This document shows, in pieces, positions 21,407 to 46,861 of a DNA stretch of 47,197 bases (position 1 is the first letter of the stretch; each line of letters starts with the position of its first letter). Under the pieces are notes generated by a model. It saw only the letters and a list, made by a program, of their open reading frames with translations. It had not been told where the DNA came from and made no database searches. The stretch lies in NCBI RefSeq assembly GCF_014904745.1, contig NZ_JACZCS010000013.1, forward strand, positions 1-47,197. Direction: 5' to 3'. The stretch is from Oricola nitratireducens. GTDB taxonomy: Bacteria; Pseudomonadota; Alphaproteobacteria; Rhizobiales; Rhizobiaceae. Made by a program: the position numbers and the translations under genes.

Positions 21407-22849
21407 TCACGGACGACAACCGGATGGCCCGCTTTCGGCCCCCTTTCCGATTTCGGAATTCAGAGGAAGAAGATGTGAGACCGTCTCGCAGAATGCGATC
21501 GCGCGCGCTTTTTCGATGATCCCGTTCATTTCCTCGGGACTTGCCGCGCCCGAATAGCTGGCGAGCCGGCGGGCTTTTTCGTCGACCTCTGTTGGTGTCA
21601 ACGAGTTCCCGGGATCCCCTTTCGGCTCGTCGACACGCCCGGCAAGCTCCCGTCCGTCCTTGGTGTAGACTGTCACTTTCCCGATCCAGCGGCCCGGATA
21701 GGCTTCATCGACCTCATGGTCCAGCCGCATTTCGACCCTGTCGAGAAAGGACTGAGCGCTGCTGTCGCCGAAGAAGCCGTCGAACTCCTCCAACCCGGCT
21801 CGCCGATGCGTTGCGATCAGGCCGAGTGTTGCCGGCATCGAGAATTTCGCCTGATGCACGGTCTGTGGATTGGTCACCGGACCAAGCACGTCCAGTGCCC
21901 CCTGATGGACGTGAGCGACGATCCGAACCAGATTGTCGCAAGTCAGATCGTGTTGTTCGACCACACTCAGGAGCGCGTCAGCGGCCGGATGAGTGTGCCG
22001 GCATGAGGAATGCCACTTGAAGGATGTTTCCGCCAACGCCCAGCGCGCTCCCAGTCGATCGGTCAGCTTGCCCGGGTCGGCGTCAAAGGACATGCCCGCC
22101 GCCATTCCCTGCGCGCCCTCGAGGATGCGCCTGGCGCCTGTGAATCCTTCCGCCGCCAGATATGCGGCGGTGATGCCGTCGGCAGCCGCCTTTGCCGTGT
22201 GAAGCTGCTTGGAGTCCGCGGCGTCGCGCAGAAACTCCCACAGGCCGGCCGCCTGGGTTCCCGCCGAACCGATCGCGTTCAGCATTGCCGTTTCGTCGAG
22301 CTTCAGGATGCGGCCGACGGCCACCGCGGCCGCGATCGTCCCCGCGGTACCTGTCGTGTGGAATATCCTGTAATGCGACCGGCCGAGGAATTCCCCCACC
22401 CGGATCCCTGCTTCGTAGCCGGCGACGCATCCGGCGACGAAATCGCGGCCCGAGGCGCCCGCCTCCTGCGCAGCCGCCAGAGCCGCTGGAAAAACCACGG
22501 CAGCCGGATGAAACACCGAGGCATTGTGGACATCGTCCTGCTCGGAAATATGCGAGGCTGCCGCGTTGACCAAGGCTGCGAACAGCGGAGACGTCGTCTG
22601 CCGGGTCGTCAGCACCTCCGACTTGCCCGAACCGGGACCCATGCGTTGAGCGAAATCCTCAAGCGTTGCGATTGCCCGCTGCCCCTTGCCCGAGAGCGCG
22701 GAGCCGATCCAGTCGACGAACAGATCGCTCAACCGCTCCAGAACATCGGCGGGCATCTCGGCGATGTCCAGTTTCGAAGCGAAAGCGGCAAGCGTCGCGC
22801 TCTCGGCGCCGGTGGCGCGAGTCATGGCGGGATTGCGTTTCTGTTCCAT
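21407..22849 (-). CDS. MmgE/PrpD-family protein
   Basis: Protein of about 480 residues in the MmgE/PrpD family, which includes 2-methylcitrate dehydratase and cis-aconitate decarboxylase. Family features include SALSGKGQRAIATLEDFAQ, HISEQDDVHNASVFHPAAVV, HTTGTAGTIAAAVAVGRILK and FKWHSSCRHTHPAADAL. It would act in the cytoplasm on a tricarboxylate or branched dicarboxylate; the reaction cannot be fixed from sequence. Last gene of the hyuA-to-mmgE unit, 21 bases after the acyl-CoA dehydrogenase. The ATG at 22849 has AGGA 6 bases upstream; the frame is open to an ATG at 22864. In context it may make or consume an itaconate/mesaconate-like C5 acid. Confidence 0.85.
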   Translation of the reverse strand: MEQKRNPAMTRATGAESATLAAFASKLDIAEMPADVLERLSDLFVDWIGSALSGKGQRAIATLEDFAQRMGPGSGKSEVLTTRQTTSPLFAALVNAAASHISEQDDVHNASVFHPAAVVFPAALAAAQEAGASGRDFVAGCVAGYEAGIRVGEFLGRSHYRIFHTTGTAGTIAAAVAVGRILKLDETAMLNAIGSAGTQAAGLWEFLRDAADSKQLHTAKAAADGITAAYLAAEGFTGARRILEGAQGMAAGMSFDADPGKLTDRLGARWALAETSFKWHSSCRHTHPAADALLSVVEQHDLTCDNLVRIVAHVHQGALDVLGPVTNPQTVHQAKFSMPATLGLIATHRRAGLEEFDGFFGDSSAQSFLDRVEMRLDHEVDEAYPGRWIGKVTVYTKDGRELAGRVDEPKGDPGNSLTPTEVDEKARRLASYSGAASPEEMNGIIEKARAIAFCETVSHLLPLNSEIGKGAESGPSGCRP

Positions 22850-22870
22850 CATGGTTCCTGCCATCCGGTG

Positions 22871-24031
22871 CTAGAAAGATCGCGGCATGCCGAGCACGTG
22901 CTCGGCAACATAGGAGAGGATGAGATTGGTCGATATCGGGGCGACCTGGTAGAGCCGCGTTTCCCGGAACTTTCGCTCGATGTCGTACTCGGCCGCGAAA
23001 CCGAATCCGCCGTGGAACTGGATGCATGCATTCGCCGCCTCCCAGGACGCGTCGGCAGCCAGCAATTTTGCCATGTTCGCCTCCGCGCCGCATTCCTCAT
23101 GCGCATCGAATTTGTGCGCAGCCTCGAAGCGCATCAGGTTCGCGGCCTCGGTATTGACATAGGACCGGGCGATCGGGAACTGAACGCCCTGGTTTTGACC
23201 GATCGGCCGGTCGAAAACGATGCGCTGTTTTGTGTATTCTGTCACCTTGTCGATGAACCACCACGCATCGCCGATACACTCCGCCGCGATCAGGGTGCGC
23301 TCGGCGTTGAGGCCGTCGAGTATATAGCGAAATCCCCGCCCCTCCTCACCGATCAGGCTTTCCGCCGGAATTTCCAGATTGTCGAAGAACAACTCGTTGG
23401 TCTCGTGATTGACCATGTTGCGGATCGGCTTGACCGAAAGCCCGTTGCCGATCGCCTGATGCAGATCGACAAGGAAGATCGACAGGCCTTCGGATTTTCT
23501 CTTCACCTCGGCAAGCGGTGTTGTCCGCGCGAGCAGGATCATCAGATCGGAATGCTGAATCCGGCTGATCCAGACCTTTTGGCCATTGACGATGTAACGG
23601 TCGCCTTGCCGCTTCGCGGTCGTCTTGATTTTGGTGGTGTCCGTACCTGTTGTCGGCTCGGTCACGCCCATCGACTGGAGCCGCAGTTCACCGGAGGCGA
23701 TCTTCGGCAGGTAATATTCCTTCTGGGCGGGCGAGCCGTGCCGAAGCAACGTCCCCATATTGTACATCTGGCCGTGGCAATGGCCGGCATTGCCGCCGGA
23801 GCGGTTGATCTCCTCCATCACGACTGTCGCCTCGGTCAGCCCGAGCCCCGAGCCGCCATATTCCTCCGGGATCATCGCGGCCAGCCATCCGGCCTGCGTC
23901 AGCGCATCGATAAACTCCTCCGGGTAGGACGCCGCCTCGTCATGGCGACGGTGATATTCGGCCGGAAATTCGGCGCACAATGCCCGCAGGGCTTCGCGCA
24001 TGTCCTGATGCTTGTCGGCTTTGGGTATCAT
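22871..24031 (-). CDS. Acyl-CoA dehydrogenase family protein
   Basis: FAD-dependent acyl-CoA dehydrogenase (386 residues). Family segments: MIPEEYGGSGLGLTEATVVM, GVTEPTTGTDTTKIKTTA (flavin site), QKVWISRIQHSDLMILLART, and the C-terminal FGFAAEYDIERKFRETRLYQ. Where many members have the catalytic Glu in a YEGT-type motif, this one reads LYQVAPISTN, so the base must lie elsewhere or the reaction differs. The frame extends upstream, but the ATG at 24031 overlaps the CaiB stop as ATGA and has AAGGG upstream. Between a CoA-transferase and a MaoC hydratase, methylsuccinyl-CoA to mesaconyl-CoA oxidation is an attractive guess, not a proven one. Confidence 0.88.
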   Translation of the reverse strand: MIPKADKHQDMREALRALCAEFPAEYHRRHDEAASYPEEFIDALTQAGWLAAMIPEEYGGSGLGLTEATVVMEEINRSGGNAGHCHGQMYNMGTLLRHGSPAQKEYYLPKIASGELRLQSMGVTEPTTGTDTTKIKTTAKRQGDRYIVNGQKVWISRIQHSDLMILLARTTPLAEVKRKSEGLSIFLVDLHQAIGNGLSVKPIRNMVNHETNELFFDNLEIPAESLIGEEGRGFRYILDGLNAERTLIAAECIGDAWWFIDKVTEYTKQRIVFDRPIGQNQGVQFPIARSYVNTEAANLMRFEAAHKFDAHEECGAEANMAKLLAADASWEAANACIQFHGGFGFAAEYDIERKFRETRLYQVAPISTNLILSYVAEHVLGMPRSF

Positions 24032-25191
24032 TTTTCGCCCTTTTTCAAATCGGTCGGCGCGCATCCGAACTCGGACAGGATTGCGCGCGTGTGTTCGCCA
24101 AGCGACGGCACCGGGTCGAAACGCGGTTCCCAATCGTTGCCGGTCACTGGTCGCAGACCGCGGACAAGGCCTGCCGGAGTGTCGAATTCACGCCATCTGT
24201 CGCGTGCCGCGAGCTGCTCATGGTCCCAGAGATCATGCATGTCGTTCACGCGGGCGGTCCCGATCCCCGCCGTCTCTAGCCGCTGCAGCGCCTCGTTCGT
24301 GGAAAGCGAGGCAAACACCGCGCGAATGACCGGATCGAGGACTGGGCGGTGGTCGGCCCGGCCGGCATTTCCCTCAAAGCGGGAATCGGCCGCAAGGTCG
24401 GGACGCCCCAGAACGCCCTCGGCGAAAGCGATCCACTCCCGGTCGTTCTGGAGGCCGAACAGAACCTGACCATCGGCCGTCTCGAACGGACCATAGGGAT
24501 AGATCGTCGCGTGACCGGCGCCGTTGCGCGAGGGCGGCTCCTGGCCGTCCATCGAGAAATACATCGGGAAGCCCATCCATTCGGCCATCGCTTCCAGCAT
24601 CGAAACCTCGATGTGATCGCCCTTCCCGGTCTTGTGACGGTTCAAAAGGGCGGCAAGAATGGATTGATAGGCGGTAATCCCGGCCGCGATATCGGCAATC
24701 GAAATGCCGGCCTTGGCGATATGGTCTCGCGTGCCGGTAACCGACAGGAAACCCGCCTCGGCCTGGATGAGCAGATCATAGGCCTTGCGCCGTTCGGCAG
24801 GACCGCCGCGGCCATAGCCCGATATCGAACAGGTGATCAGGCCGGGATTTGCCTCGCGCAGATCAGCGGGATCGAGCCCCAGCCGTTCGACGGCGCCCGG
24901 CGCGAGATTCTGCACGAAGACATCGGCCTTCGACAGGATCGTTTTCAGCGCCTCGATCGCCGCCGGGTCCTTCAGGTCGAGGACAAGGCTTTCCTTCGAC
25001 CGGTTGGTCCACACGAAATGGCTCGACAGACCGCGCGCCCGCGTATCATAGGCGCGGGCGAAATCGCCGCCGTCCGGACGTTCCACCTTGATGACGCGCG
25101 CGCCGTTGTCCGCCATCAGCCGTGTGCAATAGGGCGCGGCAATCGCCTGTTCGAGCGACACCACGAGACAGTCGTCGAGCGGGCGCGTCAT
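24028..25191 (-). CDS. CaiB/BaiF (class III) CoA-transferase
   Basis: Family III CoA-transferase (387 residues). The N-terminus has SLEQAIAAPYCTRLMADNGA and VIKVERPDGGDFARAYD. The catalytic Asp is in KAYDLLIQAEAGFLSVTG (about residue 150). Later comes GISIADIAAGITAYQSILAA. These enzymes move CoA from a donor such as succinyl-CoA to a carboxylic acid; relatives beside MaoC-type hydratases activate itaconate, mesaconate or citramalate. The ATG at 25191 overlaps the MaoC gene stop (ATGA), and the 3' end overlaps the dehydrogenase in the same way, so the three are tightly coupled. Confidence 0.92.
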   Translation of the reverse strand: MTRPLDDCLVVSLEQAIAAPYCTRLMADNGARVIKVERPDGGDFARAYDTRARGLSSHFVWTNRSKESLVLDLKDPAAIEALKTILSKADVFVQNLAPGAVERLGLDPADLREANPGLITCSISGYGRGGPAERRKAYDLLIQAEAGFLSVTGTRDHIAKAGISIADIAAGITAYQSILAALLNRHKTGKGDHIEVSMLEAMAEWMGFPMYFSMDGQEPPSRNGAGHATIYPYGPFETADGQVLFGLQNDREWIAFAEGVLGRPDLAADSRFEGNAGRADHRPVLDPVIRAVFASLSTNEALQRLETAGIGTARVNDMHDLWDHEQLAARDRWREFDTPAGLVRGLRPVTGNDWEPRFDPVPSLGEHTRAILSEFGCAPTDLKKGEK

Positions 25192-26108
25192 GTCCGGCCT
25201 CCCGTGGCGTCCGCCGCGAGGACCGCCCGCGCCGTCATGGCGACGTGACCGTCCGCGTCGCAAGTCCAAAGCTCGACCGCATTGTCCTTAGGTAGGGGCT
25301 CACCGTTGAGATGCAGTTCCGACCCGGCAAAAAGCGGCGCGCGCGCGCGAAAGGCATAGGAAACCACCTCGGCGTCGGGCGCCTGGCGCCGGAGAAGATC
25401 CAGCATCAGAGTGGCGACGAGCGGCCCGTGGACGACCAGTCCGGGATATCCTTCCACACCTGTGACGTAGTCCTTGTCGTAGTGTATGCGGTGCGCATTG
25501 AACGTGAGCGCCGAATAGCGAAACAGGAGCCGCTCGTCAGGCACAAGGCTGCGCCGCCAGGAGCCGGGATCACGAACCTCCCCTTTGCGGCCGCCTGTCG
25601 TTCCGCCTGCGCCCCGGTAAACGATATCATGCTCGTCCGTGAGCAGCACCGGGCCGCCCTTCTCGGATATTTCGTGACGAACCGTGACGAAAAGGAGCGA
25701 TCCGTTTGCCCCCTGTTTCGGTTCGACCGAAACGATCTCCGACTTGCGTTCGACATTCATGCCAACTCGTATCGGACCGCTAAAGGCGATCCGGCTTCCG
25801 GCCCACATGCGACGTGGCAGATCGGGAGCCGATGGCAGAAAATCGCCGCGTTCGGCGTGTCCGTCGGTATCGAGTTTCGACTGACGGTCCGATGGCAGGG
25901 AAAAGAGCCAGTGCGCCAATGGCGGGATCGGGTCTCCGTCGCGAAAACCCGGATCGTCCCGGTCGAGCGTTGCACTCAACCGGTCCAGCGGACCTGCCAC
26001 GATCGTGTCCCGAGCGATCTGCACCGATCCGATCAAGGATGCATAGTCCAAATCCGACGCCATTTTCCCATTTCCCGGTTTGCGTTCATTTCCATCGATG
26101 CAGCCCAT
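25188..26108 (-). CDS. MaoC-like / FAS1-type dehydratase-domain hydratase (mesaconyl/itaconyl-CoA hydratase-like)
   Basis: About 291-306 residues with a double hot-dog arrangement: an N-terminal FAS1-like dehydratase domain (LPRRMWAGSRIAFSGPIRVG) and a C-terminal MaoC domain with the hydratase motif RYSALTFNAHRIHYDKDYV followed by EGYPGLVVHGPLVATLMLDL. This layout is that of mesaconyl-C4-CoA hydratase and itaconyl-CoA hydratase. Two starts compete: ATG at 26108 with GAGG 7 bases upstream, right after the amidase stop, and ATG at 26063, where homology begins. Predicted role: hydration of an unsaturated C5 acyl-CoA to a citramalyl-CoA type product, feeding the lyase encoded at 32811. Confidence 0.88.
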   Translation of the reverse strand: MGCIDGNERKPGNGKMASDLDYASLIGSVQIARDTIVAGPLDRLSATLDRDDPGFRDGDPIPPLAHWLFSLPSDRQSKLDTDGHAERGDFLPSAPDLPRRMWAGSRIAFSGPIRVGMNVERKSEIVSVEPKQGANGSLLFVTVRHEISEKGGPVLLTDEHDIVYRGAGGTTGGRKGEVRDPGSWRRSLVPDERLLFRYSALTFNAHRIHYDKDYVTGVEGYPGLVVHGPLVATLMLDLLRRQAPDAEVVSYAFRARAPLFAGSELHLNGEPLPKDNAVELWTCDADGHVAMTARAVLAADATGGRT

Positions 26109-26117
26109 CGGCCGACC

Positions 26118-27485
26118 TCAAGCCCTGATGATCCGTTCGATTTCCAGACCGTGGGCCAACAGGAAATCGTCCGCACCGCACGGCGCGGAAAACAGGATAC
26201 TTGTCGGCAATCCCTTCTCGTCGCAGCCGCTCGGCAACGCAAGCCCGCACAGGTTGAGTATGTTTCCCAGCACCGTGTTTCGCAGAACCAGCGAGTTCAC
26301 CGCCATGAACAGTTCGTCGTCGGCCTCGAGCGGCGCGATTTCCGGCGCGACAATCGGTGTCGTCGGCATTGCCAGCACCGCACCCGCCAATCGCGCATGC
26401 ATCCGATCCATCAGTTCCGCCCGCATCCATTGGACCGTCAGCAGGTCGTGGGCGCTCATTTGCTTGCCGCCCAGAATGCGGCGCACCACGCGGCGATCGA
26501 GCCTGCCGACCAGGTCGCTTTCGATGATGTCATGATATTCGTGATAGGCCTCGGCGGCGGTAATCGAGCCATGACGCTCGCCGATTTCCAGTATCCGGTC
26601 GAGGCACTCGAACGGTTCCCGCTCGACACGCGCGCCGGCATCGGCGAGCCTGGCAACAGCCGCCTCGAAATTGGCGAGGACGGCCTCTTCCGCGTCGTCC
26701 ATGACGACATTGGTCGGCACCAGGACGCGAAGCCCGCGAACGGATCGCGCGGGAAGCGGAACCGTATTTTCGCCCCGCATCAGTTGCGCCACGTGTACGC
26801 AGTCTGCCACGGAACGCCCAAGCGGCCCGATAGTGTCCAGTGTCCGCGACAACGGGAAGACGCCTGTCTTGTCGATCCGTCCCTCGCTCGCCTTGTAGCC
26901 GACGATGCCGTTGAACGAGGCCGGAACCCGGATCGACCCGCCGGTGTCCGACCCGATGGCGCATGGCGCAAGACCCGCGGCGACCGCGACGCCGGACCCC
27001 GAGGAAGAACCGCCGGGAGAGCGATGAACCGTCTTGTCGTTCGGATTGCGCGGCGTCCCGAAATGGGGATTGCACCCCAGACCGGAATAGGCGAATTCCG
27101 TCATGTTGAGCTTGCCGAGCGTTACCATTCCGCCTTGCGAAAGGCGCGCCGCGCAATGGCTGTCTTGCTGCTTGACCGGAGTTTCGGCAAGCAGGGCGGA
27201 AGCGGCTGTCGTGCGCGTGCCGGCAACGTCGACAACATCCTTGAATGCGACGGGAACGCCATCGAGAAGCGATGCGGGCGAGCCCGCGGCAAGACGCGCC
27301 TTCGCCGCCGCCGCTTCGTCGAGCGCGCGCCGCCGGGTAATCGTCAGGAAAACATGCTGGTCGGGATGATGTTGCACACGGTCAAGCAGGCATTCGGTCA
27401 ATTCGACCGGGCAGGCCCCACCGTCCCTGAGAACGGTGCCGATCTCCGCGGCGCACAAGTCCGCAATCCGGTCGATATTTTCCAC
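26118..27485 (-). CDS. Amidase (amidase-signature family), first copy
   Basis: Amidase-signature hydrolase (about 455 residues) with a Ser-cisSer-Lys triad: Lys in VPVAFKDVVD, cis-Ser in SPGGSSSGSGVAVAAG, and Ser in GSDTGGSIRVPASF. It cuts linear amides or half-amides of dicarboxylic acids. The start is uncertain: a GTG at 27485 with GGAG 6 bases upstream fits the family start, while the frame stays open to 27578. Closely similar to the second amidase at 33649 (shared LNxTEFAYSGLG-NPH-GTP and LGGKxMSAH segments), so they are paralogues. Ten bases before the MaoC gene. Likely role: release ammonia from an amide intermediate before CoA activation. Confidence 0.88.
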   Translation of the reverse strand: MENIDRIADLCAAEIGTVLRDGGACPVELTECLLDRVQHHPDQHVFLTITRRRALDEAAAAKARLAAGSPASLLDGVPVAFKDVVDVAGTRTTAASALLAETPVKQQDSHCAARLSQGGMVTLGKLNMTEFAYSGLGCNPHFGTPRNPNDKTVHRSPGGSSSGSGVAVAAGLAPCAIGSDTGGSIRVPASFNGIVGYKASEGRIDKTGVFPLSRTLDTIGPLGRSVADCVHVAQLMRGENTVPLPARSVRGLRVLVPTNVVMDDAEEAVLANFEAAVARLADAGARVEREPFECLDRILEIGERHGSITAAEAYHEYHDIIESDLVGRLDRRVVRRILGGKQMSAHDLLTVQWMRAELMDRMHARLAGAVLAMPTTPIVAPEIAPLEADDELFMAVNSLVLRNTVLGNILNLCGLALPSGCDEKGLPTSILFSAPCGADDFLLAHGLEIERIIRA

Positions 27486-27622
27486 CAAACACTCCAATTT
27501 CCTGCGGCATGGAAATCCGATGGCCCCGATATGGCGCGCGCCATCGCTCATCCGCGGGGGCTTCCCCGTGGCCTGCACCGAAAATCCGGCCTGATTGCCT
27601 GAAGTCCGCGTTGCGAGCGGAA

Positions 27623-27639
27623 CGGGATCAACTATCCCG
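27623..27639 (-). terminator. Small hairpin after hyuB
   Basis: CGGGAT / ATCCCG arms with a 5-base loop lie in the 192-base gap between hyuB and the amidase. There is no U-tract. It is a possible processing or attenuation site only; nothing else is recognised in 27486-27677. Confidence 0.3.
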
Positions 27640-27677
27640 AACGTACCGTCATGTCAGAACCTCCTCGCGTCCCGCCG

Positions 27678-29453: not shown

Positions 29454-29464
29454 GTCTGTATCCC

Positions 29465-31558
29465 TCAGGTCCGTTCGATGTGGATGTCGCCATGGCCCAG
29501 CACCGTCGCAACGAAGCCCGGCGGCACGATCGTCGTCGAGTTGTGCTGGGTGATGATTGCCGGGCCCGTCACGCGATCGTCGGCGAGAAGCCTGGTGCGG
29601 TCGTAGCGTGGTGTCGGAGTGGCGAGACCGTCGTCGAAAATGGTGTCGCGGGTGTAGAGATGCGCCTCTTCCGGGTTGTGCCGCCCGCCATGGTCGAGAT
29701 CGGGCAGCCGCAACTGATCGACCTGGGCCGAGGCGATCACCCGCAGGGTCACGCCCTCGGTAATCTGGTCGCGGAAGGCGTGGCCGTAGGTTTCCTTGTG
29801 CGCATCGAAGAACGAGTCGATCACCGCGTGCTTGTTCTCCTGGGTCAGCGCCGCGGCCGGCATCTCGGCGCGCAACTCGAACCCCTGGCCGAGATAGCGG
29901 CATTCCATGATCTTCTGGAACCGGCGCGCCTCTGTCGGGATGCGGTCGGCCTCAAGCTGGGCATTGGCCTCGGCGATCAGTTCGTCAGCAATTTCGTTGA
30001 TCCGGGCCAGCGCCGCGTCATCGGCATCGTCCAGCGTCTTCAGTACCGAACGGGTGTATTCGTATTTCAAATCGGTCACCAGCAGGCCCATCGCGGCAGT
30101 GATCCCGGGCTGCAGCGGCGAAATCGCGTCCTTGGCCTGCACCATTTCGGCCAGCGCCACCACGTGCAGCGGCCCTGCCCCGCCAAAGCCCATCAGCGAG
30201 AAGCCGCGCGGGTCGATACCCTTGGCCACCGAGTTGCCGTTGATAGCCAGCGCCATGTTGTTGTTGATGATCTTGAGAATCCCCAGCGCGGCATCTGTCA
30301 CGCTCAGGCCCAGCGGATCGGCTATGTGTTCCCTGATCGCCTCCTCGGCCAGCGCCTTGTCGATCGACAGGTCGCCGCCGAGGAAGCGTTCGGGGTCAAG
30401 CCGCCCCAGCGCCACCTGCGCGTCGGTCACGGTGGGCTCGGTGCCGCCGCGGCCATAACAGGCCGGCCCCGGCACCGCGCCCGCCGAACGCGGCCCGACA
30501 CGGAAGGCGCCGCCCTCGTCCACATAGGCGATCGAACCGCCGCCGGCGCCGATCGCGTCGATATCGATCATCGGCGCCAGCACGGGCAGATCGGCGACAA
30601 GCGTGTCGCGCGGGTTCTTGATCCGCAACTCGCCATTCTGGATCACCGAAATGTCGGCCGAGGTGCCGCCGATATCGATGGTGATGACATTGGCGCTGTC
30701 ACAGTGATGGCCGGTCCAGCGGCCGCCGATCACGCCTCCGGCCGGGCCGGAGAGCAGCAGGCCGATCGGCCGGGCCGCCGACTGGTCGATCGTGGAGATG
30801 CCTCCATTCGACTGCATGATGCGCACTGTGGCGCCGATCCCGTTCTCCTTTAGCCTGCTTTCCAGGCGGCGCAGATACAGCGCCGTCTTGGGGCCGACAT
30901 AGGCGTTCATCGCGGTCGAGCTGAAGCGCTCGTATTCGCGGATCACATTCACCACGTCGGACGAAGCGCAAACGAAAGCATCGGGCATCACCTCCCGCAC
31001 GATCTCGGCGGCGCGCTTTTCATGCGCATCATTGAGAAAGGAGAACAGGAAACCGATAATCACCGCGTCCAGTCCGCGCTTTTTGAACAGTTCGGCGGCG
31101 GCACGCACCTCGTCCTCGTCCAGCGGCACCTCGATCTCGCCAGTGGGCGGCGACAGCCGCTCGGTGATCGGCACCCGGTTGCGACGCTTGACCAGCGGTT
31201 TCGACTGCCAGGGTATGTCGAACTGCAGCGAGAAATTGTGCGGCCGCTTGTGCCGCGCCATATGCAGGATATCGCGAAAGCCGCGCGTGGTGAGCATGCC
31301 CACCTCGGCGCCATTGCGCTCAATGACCATGTTCGTGGCCACCGTGGTGCCGTGAAACAGCACGTCGATGTCACCGGGCGCCACGCCAGCCTGTTCGCAC
31401 ACTTGCAGAACACCCGCGACCACGCCCTCTGACTGGTCATGCGGGGTGGAGGGAACCTTGGTCACGACCACTTGCTGGTCGTCTTCCCCTGCGACGCGCG
31501 TGCGTTCCAGCACGATGTCGGTAAATGTGCCGCCCACGTCTACGCCAACTCGTATCAT
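29465..31558 (-). CDS. hyuA: Hydantoinase/oxoprolinase subunit HyuA (N-methylhydantoinase A type)
   Basis: A subunit (697 residues), the actin-fold ATPase partner of HyuB. It starts MIRVGVDVGGTFTDIVLE, the phosphate-binding strand of the family, and has GTTVATNMVIERNGAEVGML, SNGGISTIDQSAARPIGLLL, SGPAGGVIGG and ITIDIGGTSADIS. The C-terminal half has the hydantoinase A region with MGFGGAGPLHVVALAE. A strong AGGAGG site 6 bases before the ATG at 31558 sets the start. It is the first gene of the minus-strand catabolic unit and divergent from lysR, which probably regulates it. Known members cleave hydantoins or 5-oxoproline, or carboxylate acetone; substrate here is open. Confidence 0.9.
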   Translation of the reverse strand: MIRVGVDVGGTFTDIVLERTRVAGEDDQQVVVTKVPSTPHDQSEGVVAGVLQVCEQAGVAPGDIDVLFHGTTVATNMVIERNGAEVGMLTTRGFRDILHMARHKRPHNFSLQFDIPWQSKPLVKRRNRVPITERLSPPTGEIEVPLDEDEVRAAAELFKKRGLDAVIIGFLFSFLNDAHEKRAAEIVREVMPDAFVCASSDVVNVIREYERFSSTAMNAYVGPKTALYLRRLESRLKENGIGATVRIMQSNGGISTIDQSAARPIGLLLSGPAGGVIGGRWTGHHCDSANVITIDIGGTSADISVIQNGELRIKNPRDTLVADLPVLAPMIDIDAIGAGGGSIAYVDEGGAFRVGPRSAGAVPGPACYGRGGTEPTVTDAQVALGRLDPERFLGGDLSIDKALAEEAIREHIADPLGLSVTDAALGILKIINNNMALAINGNSVAKGIDPRGFSLMGFGGAGPLHVVALAEMVQAKDAISPLQPGITAAMGLLVTDLKYEYTRSVLKTLDDADDAALARINEIADELIAEANAQLEADRIPTEARRFQKIMECRYLGQGFELRAEMPAAALTQENKHAVIDSFFDAHKETYGHAFRDQITEGVTLRVIASAQVDQLRLPDLDHGGRHNPEEAHLYTRDTIFDDGLATPTPRYDRTRLLADDRVTGPAIITQHNSTTIVPPGFVATVLGHGDIHIERT

Positions 31559-31691
31559 AATGCCTCCTGCAGTGCCGATCGCGCCCGCGAAATCGGGCCA
31601 AACTGATGACACGGAAAACACAATTCAAACGGATCCCGTTGGCGCCCCGCCGACCGCTCGATGCGCGGTGCGGTTGTCCGAGGCTGCCGGA

Positions 31692-31812
31692 ATTGATACC
31701 GGCTGAGAATTTTTCTCTCGTTCGAGTTTTCCGTGCCGATATTGATTAAATCATTGATTTGCGCTATTAAAAATAATTATTGGCCGATTATTGATACAGA
31801 AAACATATCAAT
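31692..31812. promoter_or_regulatory. AT-rich operator region with ATTGAT repeats between hyuA and lysR
   Basis: The 232-base divergent gap is strikingly AT-rich at its lysR end. A perfect inverted repeat with ATTGATA / TATCAAT arms and a 9-base spacer (31790-31812) contains the T-N11-A pattern of LysR-type boxes (T31795, A31807). Further ATTGAT half-sites lie at 31692, 31741 and 31753, and an AAATCA-T-TGATTT dyad at 31748-31760. The main box overlaps the likely lysR start, suggesting autorepression along with activation of hyuA. Confidence 0.65.
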
Positions 31813-32717
31813 TGAAATACGACCTGAAACACCTGGCTGCCTTGGTCGCCGTGGGGGACGAACTCAACTTCCACAGAGCGGCGGAAAAACTCGGTATGGC
31901 CCAGCCCGCAGTCAGCCGGATGATCCGCGAACTGGAGCAGCGACTCGGCATCAAACTGATAGAGCGAACGACACGCCGCGTCTCGCTGACGGAGTCCGGG
32001 AGCTACCTACGCGAGGAGGCGCGCGCCATACTCACCCGGGTCGAACTGTCGGAGCGCACGGCCAAGTCATTCGCGTCGGGCACAAAGGCGATTCTGCGCC
32101 TCGCCTACATGAACCTGGCGGGTCATGCGCTGGTTCCCGACATCGTAAGCGGCTTCCGCCGCGACAATCCGGACATACGCTGCGAGATGACCTATCTGAC
32201 CTCGCCGCTCCAGCGCGATGCGGTCCTCAAGAACGAGATCGATGTTGGCTTCATTGTCGGCCCCTTTCAGAGTGCCGAAATCGATTCCAAGCCCGTCGCC
32301 CGTCATCCGCTGGTTGCCCTCTTGCCCGCGGAACACCCGCTTGGCGGGAAGGAGGTCGTCACGGTCCGAGATCTCGCCGACGAACCCCTCGTTCTCGGAA
32401 CGACGGAAGAATGGCCGACCTTGCGGCAGATCATCGTCAACGTGTTCCAAAGCGACGGGAAAATGCCGACCATCGCCCAGGAAGCATCCAGCCTGACCGG
32501 CATACTGGGACTGGTTACAGCCGGCGTCGGGCCAACGATCTTCTGCGGCGTTCCGCGGTTTTGCTCGGAGCCGACGATCCTTGCGCGACGCATTGCTACA
32601 GAGCAGCACGCCTACGTGGAAACGCACATGATCTGGAAAAAAAACCGCCTCAGCATTCCGCTGAAAAGATTCATCCGCAAGGCCGATGAGGTTTCCGCGG
32701 CCTATCTGGCCGACTGA
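31791..32717 (+). CDS. LysR-family transcriptional regulator
   Basis: LysR-type regulator of about 300 residues. The winged helix occupies the first 65 or so residues (LKHLAALVAVGDELNFHRAA, EKLGMAQPAVSRMIRELEQR, LIERTTRRVSLTESG), followed by a linker helix and the effector-binding domain (for example VGFIVGPFQSAEIDSKPVAR). No ATG lies before the DNA-binding domain: the only starts are TTG at 31791 or TTG at 31812, and neither has a clear ribosome site, so expression may be low by design. Divergent from hyuA and followed by the lyase gene, it is the likely regulator of the catabolic block, sensing one of its intermediates. Confidence 0.88.
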   Translation: MIQKTYQLKYDLKHLAALVAVGDELNFHRAAEKLGMAQPAVSRMIRELEQRLGIKLIERTTRRVSLTESGSYLREEARAILTRVELSERTAKSFASGTKAILRLAYMNLAGHALVPDIVSGFRRDNPDIRCEMTYLTSPLQRDAVLKNEIDVGFIVGPFQSAEIDSKPVARHPLVALLPAEHPLGGKEVVTVRDLADEPLVLGTTEEWPTLRQIIVNVFQSDGKMPTIAQEASSLTGILGLVTAGVGPTIFCGVPRFCSEPTILARRIATEQHAYVETHMIWKKNRLSIPLKRFIRKADEVSAAYLAD

Positions 32718-32810
32718 TGTATCGCCGCCGACATGGACCGTCCGGCCCGGTGAAATTTACTGGCCGATATGGAAAATGCCCGAAGCCTTTGCCCTGATGA
32801 AAGCTCGCAA

Positions 32811-33617
32811 ATGAAGTTTGCCCCACCGGTTTGCCCGTTGTTCGTCCCCGCTTCTCGGCCCGATCGATTTGAAAAAGCCGCATCGAGTGGCGCCGACGCA
32901 ATCGTCATCGACCTGGAAGATGCGGTCGCTCCCGGCGACAAGGCTGCCGCGCGCATGGCTGCGCAAAGCCACGGCATCGCCGGCCTGCCTGTCTATGTCC
33001 GAATCAACGGGGCCGATACGCCATGGCACGATGACGACCTGCAAGCCCTGAATAATACCGCGCTCGCCGGCATCGTTCTGCCCAAGGCTGACGAACCGGA
33101 TGTCGTGGCGCGTCTTCGCAAAATGCTCGACCGGGATATCCCGGTTTTGCCGCTGATCGAATCCGCGCGCGGAATGGAAGCCCGGCAGGCGCTGCTGTCT
33201 GCCGAAGGCGTTCTTTGCGCGATCTTCGGCTCGCTGGACTATGCGCTCGATATGGGCTGCGTCGCCGAGTGGCAGCCATTGTTGCCTGCCAGAATGTCCC
33301 TGGTCCAGACCTCGCGAAGTCTGGGACTGCCGGCGCCGATCGATGGTGTCACGACAAATGTGAAGGATCTGACACAAACCCGAACCGAAGCCGCGCTCGC
33401 GCGCGACCATGGTTTCGGCGGCAAACTTGCCATCCATCCTGCGCAGGTCGAGCCGATCCTCGACGCTTTCCGCCCCGGACAAGAGCAGGTGGCATGGGCG
33501 AGACGCGTGCTGGAAGCGGCAGGTTCTGGCGATGCCGCTGTTTACATTGTCGATGGCGCGATGGTGGACGCACCCGTCATCAAGAAAGCACGGGATATCC
33601 TGCGACGGTCAAAATAG
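32811..33617 (+). CDS. HpcH/HpaI-CitE family lyase (citramalyl/malyl-CoA lyase-like)
   Basis: TIM-barrel CoA-ester lyase of 268 residues. Family features: LFVPASRPDRFEKAASSGAD at the start, VIDLEDAVAPGDKAAAR, the Arg in YVRINGADTPWHDDD, the metal-binding Glu in LPLIESARGMEAR and the Asp in FGSLDYALDMG. It would cleave a 3-hydroxyacyl-CoA such as citramalyl-CoA into acetyl-CoA and a keto acid (pyruvate). The ATG at 32811 fits the family start; an ATG at 32769 in the same frame is possible. It is downstream of lysR on the same strand and completes the transferase-dehydrogenase-hydratase-lyase set on the other side of the divergent promoter. Confidence 0.88.
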   Translation: MKFAPPVCPLFVPASRPDRFEKAASSGADAIVIDLEDAVAPGDKAAARMAAQSHGIAGLPVYVRINGADTPWHDDDLQALNNTALAGIVLPKADEPDVVARLRKMLDRDIPVLPLIESARGMEARQALLSAEGVLCAIFGSLDYALDMGCVAEWQPLLPARMSLVQTSRSLGLPAPIDGVTTNVKDLTQTRTEAALARDHGFGGKLAIHPAQVEPILDAFRPGQEQVAWARRVLEAAGSGDAAVYIVDGAMVDAPVIKKARDILRRSK

Positions 33618-33648
33618 ACGCGCCGCGGCTTCGACCGCCCCGATGCCT

Positions 33649-35028
33649 TTAACGGTCAGATTGAAGCTCTTCGAATGCCGCCTGCACGGATAGTCCATAT
33701 CCGAGAACGAGATCGTCCTGATTGGCCGTGCCGGACAGCAGGAAACTCGTGGGCATGTTCGCCTCGCCCACTCCGTTCGGCATTGCCAGTCCTGGCAGGT
33801 CCAGGAAATTCCCCATCATGGTATTGCGCAGAGTCTTCAGATTGACGCGATGGAAAAGCGCCTTGTCCGCCTCCAGCGGGCCGATCTTGGGCGCGACATG
33901 CGGCACGGTCGGCATGGCAATCAAGGCTCCGTCGACCATCGAGGCGAGTTCGCGGATGAGCTGCAACCGCGCGCGCTGCAACGTTGCCAAAGCGTGGGCA
34001 GACATTCTCTTTCCACCCAAAATCCGGTCGACCACCCGGCTGTCCACGCGAGAGACGTCCGGCCCGTCCACAAGATCACAATGCTCGACATAGGCATCAA
34101 CCGCAGCGATCGAACCGAATTCTTCCGCCAGCTTCGCCGCTTGGGAGAACACCGGCACGGGGCCGGACCGAATCGTCGCGCCACGCGCCTCCAGGCAGGC
34201 CAGAGACGCCTCGAAATTCTTCATGACCTCCGGCTCGACATCGTCCAGCACCACGGACTCGGGCACGAAGATCGACAGTTCCCGCAAGGGGCGGCGCACA
34301 ACGGTTGCGGAGACCGCGCCGCGCAGAGCGGCGTCAAGAAGAATGCAGTCTTCCACGGACCGGGCGAGCGGGCCGACCGTATCGAGCGTCCGGGACAGGG
34401 GAAAGACGCCTTCGGAAGAGACGCGATCGATCGTCGGCTTGAAGCCGGTAATGCCGTTGAAGGCCGAAGGAATGCGGACGGACCCGCCCGTATCGGTACC
34501 GATGGCGCAAGGCGCCAGTCCGGAGGCGACAGCAACGCCGCATCCCGATGACGATCCGCCGGGTACGCGCGGCTCGTCCTTGCCGCGCGGATTGACCGGC
34601 GTGCCGTAATGCGGATTGAGGCCCAGCCCCGAATAGGCGAATTCGGTGAGATTGACCTTGCCGAGGCTGACCATGCCGGCGGCCGTCAGATTGGACGCGA
34701 CGGTCGCGTCCTCTGTTGCCGGCGGGGCGTCGCGATAGACGTCGGACCCGGCGGTCGTTGTAAGACCTTCGAGATCGAACAGATCCTTCCACGCGACGGG
34801 AACGCCATCCAGCGGCGAGAGCGGCCGGTTGGACGCAATACGCTTTTCCGCCGCCCGGGCTTCCTTCAGCGCCCGATCGGCGGTGATCGAGAGGAAGACC
34901 GGCGAAGTCTGGTTGCCAATCCCGTCGAGGAGATATTCCGCCAGCGCGACAGGGCTGATTTCACGCGCCTGCAGCGCGCGGCCTATGGAGGCAGCGGATC
35001 TTCCCGCTACGGATTCAGGATCTGACAT
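33649..35028 (-). CDS. Amidase (amidase-signature family), second copy
   Basis: Amidase-signature hydrolase (459 residues). Catalytic Lys in VPVAWKDLFDLEG, cis-Ser in VPGGSSSGCGVAVASG, Ser in GTDTGGSVRIPSAF. Paralogue of the amidase at 26118, sharing long blocks such as LTEFAYSGLG, NPHYGTP, FPLSRTLDT and RILGGKRMSAH. It is last in the ABC transporter unit, 29 bases after cobW, and convergent with the lyase gene (31-base gap). GAGGGG lies about 7 bases before the ATG. With the imidase-like gene upstream, half-amidase activity (removing the second nitrogen-bearing amide after ring opening) is a reasonable hypothesis. Confidence 0.9.
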   Translation of the reverse strand: MSDPESVAGRSAASIGRALQAREISPVALAEYLLDGIGNQTSPVFLSITADRALKEARAAEKRIASNRPLSPLDGVPVAWKDLFDLEGLTTTAGSDVYRDAPPATEDATVASNLTAAGMVSLGKVNLTEFAYSGLGLNPHYGTPVNPRGKDEPRVPGGSSSGCGVAVASGLAPCAIGTDTGGSVRIPSAFNGITGFKPTIDRVSSEGVFPLSRTLDTVGPLARSVEDCILLDAALRGAVSATVVRRPLRELSIFVPESVVLDDVEPEVMKNFEASLACLEARGATIRSGPVPVFSQAAKLAEEFGSIAAVDAYVEHCDLVDGPDVSRVDSRVVDRILGGKRMSAHALATLQRARLQLIRELASMVDGALIAMPTVPHVAPKIGPLEADKALFHRVNLKTLRNTMMGNFLDLPGLAMPNGVGEANMPTSFLLSGTANQDDLVLGYGLSVQAAFEELQSDR

Positions 35029-35057
35029 CGTTTCCCCCTCGTTTCAGTCCGGCCCGG

Positions 35058-36107
35058 TCATGCGACCGCGCTTTCCCGTCTCATGCGTTCCGCCATTCCG
35101 AGAAAGGCGTCGAGCGAACGCCGGATCTTTTTTTCACTGATGCCGCGCGTGATGAACACGATCCTGGACGTCCGGTCTTCGTCCGGCCACCGCTCCAGAT
35201 GAAGTGGAGGATGGACCACATGCTGAACGCCGTGAAGGATGACCGGCGTGCTCGATTCGGCCACATTGAGGATGCCCTTGACCCTCAGGATATTCTCCCC
35301 GTGCGCGTGAAGAAGCGCCGTCAGCCAGATACCGAAAGCCGTCCAGTCGATCGGATGCGCGTAGCGCAGGACAAATGAATTCGTCGCGTGGTCGTCGTGA
35401 AGATCGTGTTCATGATGATGCCCGTGCGAGTGCTCGGACCGTTCGAGCGCCTGCGCGCTTTCCAGCCAGCGCCGCACTTCCGCTTCCCGCCGCTTTTCGT
35501 CGCCAATGTCTTCACCAAAGAGAAAATCCGCGTCGAAGCCGGTTCCGCATGAAGTGCCGATCGGCGCAAGCGGATTGAGCCGGTGCAACGTCCCCTTCAA
35601 TTCGGCGATGCATTCGTCATCGACAAGGTCCGCTTTCGTCACGAGGAGACGGTCGGCAATCGATATCTGTTTCTTCGCTTCGGGTTGCGACTCGATCGTG
35701 TGACGGCCATTTTGCGCGTCGACCGTGCATATGACATTGGCGACCCGGTAGTGATTTCGGATGATCGGATCCGCCGCTATCGTTGAAACGATCGGCGCGG
35801 GATCGGCCAGCCCGGTCGTCTCGATCACGACACGGCTGAATTTCGGCATGTCGCCGCGCGCGGCCTTGTCATGCAGATTGCGTATGGTTTCCTTGAGATC
35901 GGACCGGATCGTGCAACAAATACATCCCGATTCGAGAAGTAGAACGCCCTCCTCGACTTCTTCGAGGAGCACATGATCGAGCCCGACTTCGCCGAATTCA
36001 TTTACGATAACCGCCGTATCGGAGAATTCGGCGCTTCTGAGGATTTCGCGAAGAAGGGTTGTTTTACCCGACCCCAGAAAACCCGTGACGACATTGACCG
36101 GAATCAT
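35058..36107 (-). CDS. COG0523 (CobW/YjiA-like) GTPase, probable zinc metallochaperone
   Basis: G3E-family P-loop GTPase (349 residues). Walker A GFLGSGKTT (9-17), NEFGE (36-40), the metal-binding motif GCICC with C62, C64 and C65, the guanine-specificity motif TKAD (157-160), a His-rich stretch HSHGHHHEHDLHDDH (226-240) and the CobW C-terminal domain. Members hand zinc or another metal to client enzymes. There are no cobalamin genes nearby; the neighbours are a metal-dependent hydrolase and a small Cys-containing protein, so the hydrolase is the likely client. The ATG overlaps the stop of the small gene (ATGA). Confidence 0.9.
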   Translation of the reverse strand: MIPVNVVTGFLGSGKTTLLREILRSAEFSDTAVIVNEFGEVGLDHVLLEEVEEGVLLLESGCICCTIRSDLKETIRNLHDKAARGDMPKFSRVVIETTGLADPAPIVSTIAADPIIRNHYRVANVICTVDAQNGRHTIESQPEAKKQISIADRLLVTKADLVDDECIAELKGTLHRLNPLAPIGTSCGTGFDADFLFGEDIGDEKRREAEVRRWLESAQALERSEHSHGHHHEHDLHDDHATNSFVLRYAHPIDWTAFGIWLTALLHAHGENILRVKGILNVAESSTPVILHGVQHVVHPPLHLERWPDEDRTSRIVFITRGISEKKIRRSLDAFLGMAERMRRESAVA

Positions 36108-36427
36108 GGCGCCGACTTCTCGATTTCATCGATCCAGGCGTCATCCAGGGGATCGATGGGCTTGCCACGCAGACGGTCGACAGCTCCCCAGACACTTTGC
36201 AGGTCGCCGACGATCTCCTGCCGGCCGGTAGGCGACCGGACGATGTAACTGGTCGCCTGAAAATCCGTAAGCTTCAGCCGCGCGGCCGCCAGCGCCCTGT
36301 TCACCAGTTCGGACCGGTGCAGCCTCTCCGCGCGAATGGTACGGCGGGTCGCGCCGGTAAACGCCTGCGGATGGGCGGATGTCTCCGTCCAGTGCACCGT
36401 TCCAAGCAGCCCGCACAAACCGCACAT
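36104..36427 (-). CDS. Unrecognised 107-residue protein with N-terminal MCGLCG motif
   Basis: I do not recognise a function. The protein begins MCGLCGLLGTVHWTE, so C2, C5 and perhaps H12 could bind a metal. The middle (about 28-85) is a basic helix-rich region (TRRTIRAERLHRSELVNRAL) followed by a strand-turn-strand segment (QATSYIVRSPTGRQEIVGDL), and the C-terminus is acidic. No signal peptide or membrane segment. ATG at 36427 has GGGAG 7 bases upstream; a TTG two codons earlier is unlikely. It overlaps cobW by 4 bases and follows the deacetylase-fold gene, so it is probably a partner of the metallochaperone or of the hydrolase. Real gene status is supported by coupling and a good ribosome site. 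Confidence 0.8.
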   Translation of the reverse strand: MCGLCGLLGTVHWTETSAHPQAFTGATRRTIRAERLHRSELVNRALAAARLKLTDFQATSYIVRSPTGRQEIVGDLQSVWGAVDRLRGKPIDPLDDAWIDEIEKSAP

Positions 36428-36448
36428 TTTCAAACTCCCAAAGGAGAA

Positions 36449-36473
36449 AGGGCGAACCGGGCCGGTTCGCCCT
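36449..36473 (-). terminator. Hairpin between the imidase-like gene and the MCGLCG gene
   Basis: A perfect 10-pair stem (AGGGCGAACC / GGTTCGCCCT) with a 5-base loop follows the hydrolase stop by 17 bases; on the minus strand it is followed by TTTCTCCTTT. It looks like a partial terminator that lowers expression of the downstream small gene, cobW and amidase. Confidence 0.7.
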
Positions 36474-36490
36474 CACCTCCAGTCAACTGC

Positions 36491-37366
36491 TTACCGGGGG
36501 AAGCGCTTCGCGAAATCATCCGCAATCGCGTCGAAGGTCGTGAATTCGACGCCCGGATGGCTGATGATGTGATTGTAGAGGCGCTCCAGCATCAGCAGGA
36601 CCTGCGGCTTGCCCGACACATCCGGGTGAACCGTCAAGGTGTAAACCGCATAGTCCATTTCGCGGTAGACCCAGTCGAACTGATCGCGCCACATCTCTTC
36701 CAGATGCCGCGGATTCACGAAACCGTGACTGTTCGGCGCGGCCTTCATGAACATCATCGGCGGAAGATCGTCGAGATACCAGGACGCGGGAATTTCGATG
36801 AGATCGGTCTCCTCGCCACGGACGAGCGGCTTCATCCACTCCTCGGCCTTCTTGGAGTAATCGATCTTGGTCCAGGTATCACCGACGCGCACGCGGTAGG
36901 GCGAAAAGTCGTTATGCATCAGCGAGTGGTCGTACTTGATGCCCTTCTTCAGCAACAGTTCGTTCGAAACGGGAGAGAACTCCCACCACGGCGCGACATA
37001 ACCGGTGGGGCGTCGGCCGCACAGGTTCTCGATCAGCTCGATCGACTTGTCCATGACGGACTCTTCCTGTTCCGGCGTCATGGCGATCGGATTTTCGTGG
37101 CTGTAGCCGTGCATGCCGATCTCGTGGCCGGCATCGGCGACCGCCTTCATCTGCTCGGGAAAGGTTTCGATCGAATGGCCCGGAATGAACCACGTCGTCT
37201 TGATGCCCCACCGCTTGAAGAGTTCGAGCAGACGCATCGAACCGACTTCGCCGGAAAAAAGTCCGCGACTGATGTCGCAGGGGCTATCCTCGCCGCCATA
37301 GGATCCGAGCCAGCCGCCCACGGCGTCCACGTCGACGCCAAAGGCGCAATAAATTTTCTTTGTCAT
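36491..37366 (-). CDS. Polysaccharide-deacetylase-fold hydrolase, cyclic imidase/PuuE/PgdA-like
   Basis: NodB-fold metal hydrolase of 291 residues. Metal ligands are D14 ([10 protein letters not shown]), H86 and H90 ([13 protein letters not shown]); as I recall, the same spacing is reported for Helicobacter PgdA. No signal peptide, so it acts in the cytoplasm, which argues against cell-wall deacetylation and for the subgroup that includes zinc-dependent cyclic imide hydrolases and allantoinase-like PuuE. It would open a cyclic imide to a half-amide. ATG at 37366 has GGAGG 8 bases upstream. Its place among an importer, amidase and metallochaperone supports a small N-heterocycle as substrate. 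Confidence 0.85.
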
Positions 37367-40654: not shown

Positions 40655-40665
40655 TCAGACGGCTC

Positions 40666-46761: not shown

Positions 46762-46861
46762 GGATAGATGGCCAAGCAATTGACTGTTCTATGCAAACTC
46801 AAACACACCCGGGTCTCCGTGGCAATCGGGTTCGCGGCCGGCTGACTGTCCCGCGCAGCGG

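Follow-up and report, generated by a model that had tools for sequence, protein, structure and literature searches.

A 47,197-nucleotide stretch of Oricola nitratireducens DNA (contig NZ_JACZCS010000013.1; hereafter the window, whose numbering is used throughout) contains a locus in which predicted ring-opening amide hydrolases adjoin genes for the coenzyme A (CoA)-dependent breakdown of a branched C5 dicarboxylate. With moderate confidence, drawn from its genes, the locus is interpreted as catabolic, with a nitrogen-containing five- or six-membered ring feeding a branched C5 dicarboxylate, probably methylsuccinate, to a known pathway. So far as the open-access literature tells, the physical joining of a hydantoinase-type enzyme (HyuAB) and an amidase to methylsuccinate genes is new, as is an apparent exchange of HyuAB for a deacetylase-fold imidase. 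Pfam scanning of the 40 open reading frames (ORFs) of the window, together with the evidence named on each line, yielded the following features.

21407..22864, minus strand: MmgE/PrpD protein, predicted (S)-(R)-methylsuccinate isomerase (Msi); Pfam 1.2e-70, MmgE tree clade, isomerase residues
22871..24031, minus strand: acyl-CoA dehydrogenase, predicted methylsuccinyl-C4-CoA dehydrogenase (Mcd); Pfam, neighbours
24028..25191, minus strand: CaiB/family III CoA-transferase, predicted itaconate/methylsuccinate CoA-transferase (Ict); Pfam 1.7e-104, tree
25188..26108, minus strand: MaoC/FAS1-like protein, predicted itaconyl/mesaconyl-C4-CoA hydratase (Ich); Pfam, PDB matches
26118..27485, minus strand: amidase 1, putative half-amide hydrolase; Pfam Amidase 9.9e-82; GTG start picked by ribosome site
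27678..29453, minus strand: HyuB, hydantoinase B/oxoprolinase-type subunit; Pfam 1.3e-159
29465..31558, minus strand: HyuA, hydantoinase A/oxoprolinase-type subunit; Pfam, AGGAGG start
31791..32717, plus strand: LysR-type regulator, divergent from HyuA; NCBIfam LysR models
32769..33617, plus strand: HpcH/CitE protein, predicted citramalyl-CoA lyase (Ccl); NCBIfam RipC best (below cut-off), structures
33649..35028, minus strand: amidase 2 of the imidase operon; Pfam, PRK06102 above cut-off
35058..36107, minus strand: CobW/COG0523-type GTPase, putative metal chaperone for the imidase; Pfam, conserved neighbourhood
36104..36427, minus strand: 107-aa CxxC protein; tblastn conservation
36491..37366, minus strand: predicted deacetylase-fold cyclic imidase, subtype A; Pfam, 3qbu match, invariant residues
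37431..44432, minus strand: ATP-binding cassette (ABC) transporter (two ATPases, two permeases, binding protein) and two short-chain dehydrogenases/reductases (SDRs; 39902-40654 and 40666-41412, by Pfam), upstream of the imidase; Pfam/NCBIfam
44550..45572, plus strand: GntR/FCD regulator of the imidase operon; Pfam, beside the operon in related loci
45562..46779, minus strand: second solute-binding protein of the imidase operon; Pfam SBP_bac_8, adjoins CobW or GntR in related loci

An earlier sequence-only reading had proposed that these genes form one undescribed pathway within 21407-37366. Every enzyme that it placed there was recovered by Pfam with exact range ends (21407 is the MmgE stop and 37366 the imidase-like ATG), and the ring opening, amide removal and C5-CoA module that it described are all present by sequence. 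The two SDRs that it also included do exist, but at 39902-41412, outside that range and within the transporter operon of the imidase. One gene absent from it, encoding the CxxC protein (36104-36427), was added, and the LysR gene was placed at 31791-32717.

The HyuAB-methylsuccinate gene run

The HyuA, HyuB, amidase 1, MaoC, CaiB, dehydrogenase and MmgE genes form one co-oriented run on the minus strand. ATGA overlaps join MaoC to CaiB and CaiB to the dehydrogenase, and short spacings separate the dehydrogenase from MmgE (6 bases), amidase 1 from MaoC (9) and the HyuA stop from the HyuB ATG (11), while LysR and HpcH are transcribed the opposite way from the gap shared with HyuA. Because of this co-orientation and these overlaps and short spacings, HyuAB, amidase 1, the whole CoA module and the divergent LysR-HpcH pair probably constitute a single LysR-controlled unit, as judged from layout. 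A LysR gene 58-61% identical to that of the window lies beside HyuA in five related genomes (G038, G068, G074, G080 and G049).

The CoA half of the locus is known chemistry belonging to a published pathway, with enzyme activities predicted here, because families, trees, neighbours and active-site residues match an assayed cluster. According to the available portion of PMC12290011 (2025), that five-gene itaconate/methylsuccinate cluster comprises an isomerase, dehydrogenase, CoA-transferase, hydratase and lyase; its MmgE protein was assayed as (S)-(R)-methylsuccinate isomerase and its dehydrogenase as (RS)-methylsuccinyl-C4-CoA dehydrogenase. The same functions were arrived at genetically in PMC9875883, as far as the accessible text of that paper goes. 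All five cluster genes (Ict, Ich, Ccl, Mcd, Msi) occur within 21407-33617 of the window, with Ccl divergent and with HyuAB and amidase 1 intervening. The combination had been presented as undescribed, and this now applies to the joining of HyuAB and amidase, the CoA half having been published with its enzymes assayed. All five families are thus shared with the Cupriavidus necator/Pseudomonas aeruginosa cluster of these two papers, from whose described form the window differs in the HyuAB and amidase genes added to the run, in HpcH lying on the other strand behind LysR, and in that Pfam found no TRAP or Tct transporter among the 40 window ORFs.

The window MmgE protein retains H88, E91, H102, Y148, H152, K202 and K266 (numbering of PMC12290011), all at an offset of +17. 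In a tree of 33 rows it fell within a 19-row clade supported at 100 by the Shimodaira-Hasegawa-like approximate likelihood ratio test (SH-aLRT), mostly from loci with dehydrogenase, CaiB and MaoC genes alongside; this and the trees below were quick ones with SH-aLRT support and no bootstrap, built from rows other than the assayed proteins themselves. Among solved structures it is closest to a Bacillus IRG1-like protein and an IDS epimerase. A role as methylcitrate dehydratase was rejected, given a score of 40.4 bits against the NCBIfam PrpD cut-off of 950 and the position in the clade of methylsuccinate-cluster MmgE proteins.

The CaiB protein grouped in a 23-row clade (SH-aLRT 100; 32 rows in total) from itaconate/methylsuccinate-type clusters; the nine rows outside it include two host-genome paralogues and several from loci also holding Ccl or Msi genes. 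The dehydrogenase is 60-84% identical to a dehydrogenase near Msi in 15 other loci, and none at least 60% identical was seen in L059, L170, L178 or L181. For both proteins the functional assignment rests on neighbours and trees, since the best NCBIfam models scored below cut-off: succinate-glutarate CoA-transferase (231 bits, cut-off 750) and succinyl-CoA:mesaconate CoA-transferase for CaiB, and acryloyl-CoA reductase (221 bits, cut-off 640) for the dehydrogenase, for which NCBIfam and PDB name other dehydrogenases.

In the predicted hydratase, Pfam detected the FAS1-like region (2.2e-08), with MaoC itself at 21.7 bits, under the cut-off of 27. At E<=0.001 it matched just two PDB sequences: 8khg (1.5e-61), whose entry name is itaconyl-CoA hydratase, and 8huc, which is nearly identical to 8khg. 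The protein is encoded in single copy in the host genome and groups with those of genomes G038 and G067 (support 97). For HpcH the best NCBIfam model was RipC (itaconate C-C lyase), at 188.7 bits and short of the cut-off of 375. The closest HpcH structures, 9nzb/8khl, are named acyl-CoA lyase beta chain; these and 3qll are presumably the P. aeruginosa and Yersinia citramalyl-CoA lyases, respectively. The HpcH tree was poorly resolved. Phylogeny, which the sequence-only reading had named as a check on its proposal, thus places CaiB and MaoC with itaconate/methylsuccinate clusters, and HpcH likewise, less clearly.

HyuA has N-methylhydantoinase 7hk5 as its closest solved structure (691 bits), and against the NCBIfam caprolactamase models CapA and CapB, HyuA and HyuB scored 576.7 and 251.2 bits, missing the cut-off of 1000. 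The two subunits are adjacent in N-methylhydantoinase and caprolactamase (7hk5; CapA/CapB), as they are in the window; the window HyuAB differs from caprolactamase CapAB in these scores and in accompanying an amidase and a CoA module. A second HyuA paralogue, about 60% identical, is present in the host genome (L212, C21:47290-49350), and no CoA-module gene was found in the 20 kb around it.

The sequence shows which genes and families are present, their order and key residues, and where they co-occur; from this we infer the following scheme, in which the substrate, the regulation, the enzyme activities and the flow from amidase into the CoA module are all predicted. HyuAB, ATP-driven by family, would open the ring, and amidase 1 would free ammonia; the resulting branched C5 dicarboxylate would most likely be methylsuccinate. 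Its stereochemistry would be set by Msi, and the CaiB enzyme would load CoA; the dehydrogenase would then form mesaconyl-C4-CoA, MaoC would hydrate it to citramalyl-CoA, and HpcH would split the latter into acetyl-CoA and pyruvate. The neighbouring imidase operon may perform an equivalent ring opening and deamidation on an imported compound.

The imidase operon

The second unit comprises the imidase, CxxC protein, CobW and amidase 2 genes (33649-37366) and continues upstream through the transporter and SDR genes to 44432, with the GntR and second binding protein genes beyond that end. An ATGA overlap also links CobW and the CxxC protein gene, and amidases 1 and 2 are 50% identical. By Pfam, the GntR helix-turn-helix occurs twice in the GntR regulator (44550-45572), which also has the FCD domain.

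The imidase-like protein matches 3qbu (502.8 bits), which we take to be H. pylori HP0310. D12, D14, H86, H90 and H247, described in PMC3084791 as metal and water ligands of HP0310 (D14, H86 and H90 forming the metal site), are invariant across 16 aligned imidase homologues. From these features the deacetylase-fold protein is predicted to be a metal-dependent cyclic imidase. The available portion of the same paper reports that purified HP0310 showed no in vitro activity towards polysaccharides, allantoin or those peptides and polyamines that were assayed.

Surveyed were the loci of the best 80 of at least 572 named imidase relatives, a set that leans to the subtype of the window (A), with loci compared by tblastn at E<=1e-15 and 40% coverage over flanks of up to 10 kb, and with genes counted at 45% identity or more. 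Imidase neighbours in these 80 loci were SDRb (68), SDRa (63), amidase 2 (50) and CobW (37), and the transporter/SDR/imidase gene order is shared by many Rhizobiaceae imidase loci. Amidase 2 scored 579.5 bits against PRK06102, above the cut-off of 559. The imidase, amidase 2, CobW and CxxC protein genes are therein part of a separate, widespread and conserved transporter/SDR operon, usually without CoA genes. Plasmids carry this operon too: relatives occur in 87 plasmid records, e.g. a Klebsiella pneumoniae plasmid (L192), and on R. johnstonii pRL12 (L187) it lies beside allophanate-hydrolase-like/carboxyltransferase genes.

The CxxC protein is a newly named conserved partner of imidase and CobW, found near both in 95 of 100 imidase loci (tblastn E<=0.01); two of the five misses belong to a distant subfamily and in three the sequence ends about 2 kb past the imidase. 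C2, C5, G6 and W13 are invariant in 52 sequences, within motifs CxxCG and HW. Its AlphaFold2 model (predicted local distance difference test score 80) gave no PDB fold match at E<=0.001, the protein had no NCBIfam match, and two homologue ORFs had no Pfam match.

Co-occurrence across genomes and competing explanations

Two genome samples were examined, one of the family (151 genomes) and one class-wide (385 genomes); Fisher tests treat genomes as independent. In the family sample, HyuA was counted at 70% identity or more, leaving out G045, G066 and G105 (best matches at most 63%), and the imidase set (21/151) includes G057 with two matches 38-42% identical. Imidase was present in 10 of 11 HyuA genomes with the host counted (p 2.9e-9), in 9 of 10 without the host (p 1.9e-8) and in 10 of 14 with the three weaker HyuA genomes retained (p 2.1e-7). 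The class sample, in which the first few candidates per genome were scored and absences are therefore soft, gave imidase in 8 of 9 HyuA genomes, host counted, against 21/385 overall (p 1.6e-10), and in 7 of 8 without the host (p 2.6e-9). One contig carries both HyuA and imidase in six relatives (G030, G038, G068, G074, G080 and G087), at a distance of 3.2-17.0 kb; the same arrangement appears to be interrupted by contig ends in G049 and G130, and in G067 the two genes fall on separate contigs.

In G122, and in G246 from another family, HyuAB ends the transporter-SDR-amidase 2 operon, in the slot held elsewhere by imidase-CxxC-CobW, and no imidase match was found in G122 (E<=1e-40) or G246 (E<=1e-100). 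In G246 the order is HyuB, ene-reductase, biotin-type transporter genes, dehydrogenase (73%) and CaiB (45%). Because HyuAB fills the imidase slot in these two genomes, one ring-opener appears to have been exchanged for another. HyuAB and imidase therefore look interchangeable, that is, alternatives for one step and not successive steps of one route.

For the methylsuccinate genes, Msi was counted in the family at 56% identity or more, leaving out five MmgE matches at 35-40% (G004, G053, G055, G060 and G090); Msi-type MmgE occurs in 16 of 151 genomes, host counted. Both blocks were found together in other genomes (G038, G067 and G068), the co-occurrence on which the single-pathway proposal had been made to depend. 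Msi and imidase are 1.5 kb apart in G067, 2.5 kb in G068 and 3.8 kb in G038, three of the four relatives having both; the fourth is G031, whose MmgE gene is truncated at the end of its contig. G038 holds DUF3830-MaoC-CaiB-dehydrogenase-MmgE with imidase and HyuAB in about 23 kb, and G068 a similar set. G067 has MmgE and MaoC with imidase; a second contig bears its HyuAB and amidase 1, which lie some 9 kb from HpcH-CaiB-dehydrogenase genes. In G074, CaiB, dehydrogenase and MaoC relatives lie about 5 kb from HyuA. No HpcH was found beside the Msi-imidase loci of G038, G067 or G068. In the MmgE tree G068 falls in a different subclade from the window, G038 and G067, and the Msi-imidase link thus arose at least twice. 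On a Comamonadaceae plasmid (CP099607.1; L189:880-1788), a complete five-gene methylsuccinate cluster has a deacetylase-family gene and an amidohydrolase as neighbours; the former shares just 23% identity with the window imidase and was given no weight as support.

Several results weigh against a ring-to-methylsuccinate route through this locus. Within the run itself, the HyuB-amidase 1 gap of 192 bp is the sole wide spacing, and curated NCBIfam cut-offs were missed by CaiB, dehydrogenase, HpcH, HyuA and HyuB. The presence of Msi and imidase was weakly associated in the family (5/16, p 0.05; without the host 4/15, p 0.12; with the five weaker MmgE genomes 6/21, p 0.047), and HpcH was not tied to Msi, imidase or HyuA (p 0.29, 0.08 and 0.13, respectively). 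In the class sample, Msi was present in the host genome only (1/385 at E<=1e-120), and in the seven non-host genomes with HyuA and imidase the two lie on different contigs or, in G408, 276 kb apart. No CoA gene was found within about 60 kb around HyuAB in G122. CoA-module genes were found in 0 of the 80 best named imidase loci at any listed identity, including L082 from Pseudohoeflea sp. DP4N28-3 (Rhizobiaceae), the source of the closest named imidase among the matches listed (95% identity), which has the imidase operon alone. The window imidase belongs to subtype A and the CoA-linked imidases of relatives to subtype B.

These last observations on imidase loci and subtypes favor two unrelated operons for nitrogen compounds that lie side by side and act on separate compounds with no common substrate or flux, as does the separate regulator of each half (GntR for the imidase operon, LysR for HyuAB-methylsuccinate). 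We regard this explanation as possible, if less probable than a ring-derived dicarboxylate feeding the methylsuccinate pathway; the presence of HyuAB in the imidase slot of G122 and G246 and the strong co-occurrence of HyuA and imidase in both samples argue against it. The earlier claim of one pathway from two blocks accordingly survives in part: HyuA and imidase do co-occur, but the imidase set is an operon of its own.

Less likely still is an ordinary itaconate/methylsuccinate cluster as the CoA module, joined to HyuAB and amidase by chance through gene transfer. Such five-gene clusters are common, being present in 36.4% of 1767 species with Msi according to the available portion of PMC12290011, and in loci L189 and L191 neither HyuA nor HyuB was found. 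The closest HpcH relative in the family sample is just 53% identical, which also favors a chance junction. On the other side are the overlapping genes and single orientation from HyuA through MmgE, and the recurrence of MmgE, imidase and HyuAB together in G038 and G068 and of MmgE and imidase in G067.

It is improbable that HyuAB is instead a carboxylase of the acetone/acetophenone type or a housekeeping 5-oxoprolinase and not the ring-opener of a pathway. Carboxylases and 5-oxoprolinase share the HyuAB superfamily, but their subunits match HyuA and HyuB with lower scores than do N-methylhydantoinase and caprolactamase, a difference on which the carboxylase role was set aside, and HyuAB replaces imidase in two operons. 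Modification of polysaccharide or peptidoglycan by the deacetylase-fold protein, to which the fold name and earlier work on HP0310 point (deacetylase activity on crude peptidoglycan extract with indirect mutant support, cited in PMC3084791), is the most improbable explanation and was set aside, since purified HP0310 lacked such activity in vitro, carries no signal peptide and has a small-molecule site that is closed, as far as the available portion of PMC3084791 tells, and the imidase neighbours are an amidase, SDRs and an importer.

Substrate clues, related systems and implications

For a ring whose nitrogen is released before methylsuccinate is formed, a five- or six-membered cyclic imide, lactam or ureide would fit, the data not choosing among them; a methyl-substituted succinimide would fit the CoA module best. 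Subtype B clusters of relatives add a dihydropyrimidinase (573.2 and 582 bits, above the NCBIfam cut-off of 393.25), an isochorismatase-type hydrolase and a carbon-nitrogen hydrolase, which scored best against N-carbamoylputrescine amidase (126 bits, cut-off 410). A DUF3830 protein is encoded beside MaoC and imidase in such clusters (L052:10873-11340 and L059:9139-9609). Together these four genes hint at cyclic ureides in subtype B clusters. They do not fix the substrate of the window because none of the four was found there by the tblastn comparison of loci or by Pfam. A Kiloniellaceae locus holds LamB/YcsF and carboxyltransferase-domain genes with biotin carboxylase.

An ene-reductase of the old-yellow-enzyme type was present in 7 of 178 long stretches, all seven with HyuAB, many stretches having been chosen for HyuA. 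The copies in L054, L086, L215, L218, L220 and L221 are 61-73% identical to that of L213 (L213:14687-15874), and the best NCBIfam model was N-ethylmaleimide reductase (170 bits, below the cut-off of 403). The window held no match, and the best relative in the host genome is just 30% identical. A doubtful extension is a modular pathway for substituted cyclic imides including maleimides, ending in the methylsuccinate route: the ene-reductase would turn a methyl-substituted maleimide into methylsuccinimide, imidase or HyuAB would open it, and deamidation and Msi would follow. Possible natural sources are maleimides from tetrapyrrole breakdown and methylsuccinimide antibiotics such as andrimid. 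If true, it would provide an environmental source of methylsuccinate other than itaconate reduction.

The available portion of PMC9304392 describes a fungal nicotinate pathway in which HxnW (SDR), HxnM (cyclic imidase) and HxnN (amidase) act in sequence; HxnM shares 64.2% identity with a cyclic imide hydrolase homologue from P. putida. Compared by family, the window too has an SDR, an imidase and an amidase in one locus; in contrast, CobW, the CxxC protein and an ABC importer are not mentioned in that portion. No nicotinate hydroxylase or hydroxylating monooxygenase was found by Pfam in the 40 ORFs of the window, to which this search was limited. A nitrate assimilation cluster adjoins the locus at 107-21236 (NarG-like, major facilitator superfamily, NasA-like, NirB, CysG, Nrt-type ABC and ANTAR regulator genes), in which a NarG-type subunit gene lies beside the assimilatory nitrate genes.

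No literature linking imidase or HyuAB to methylsuccinate was found among open-access titles and abstract openings; the word amidase is absent from the available portion of PMC12290011, and the word amide from that of PMC9875883. According to the former, the discovery that gut bacteria reduce itaconate gave the first known natural pathway for methylsuccinate, and the spread of these genes was read as a sign that methylsuccinate matters in soils. Ring-opening amide hydrolases tied to methylsuccinate genes would point to a second, testable natural source of methylsuccinate, and because HyuAB and imidase seem to replace each other in one operon position, both families gain a shared substrate class to test.

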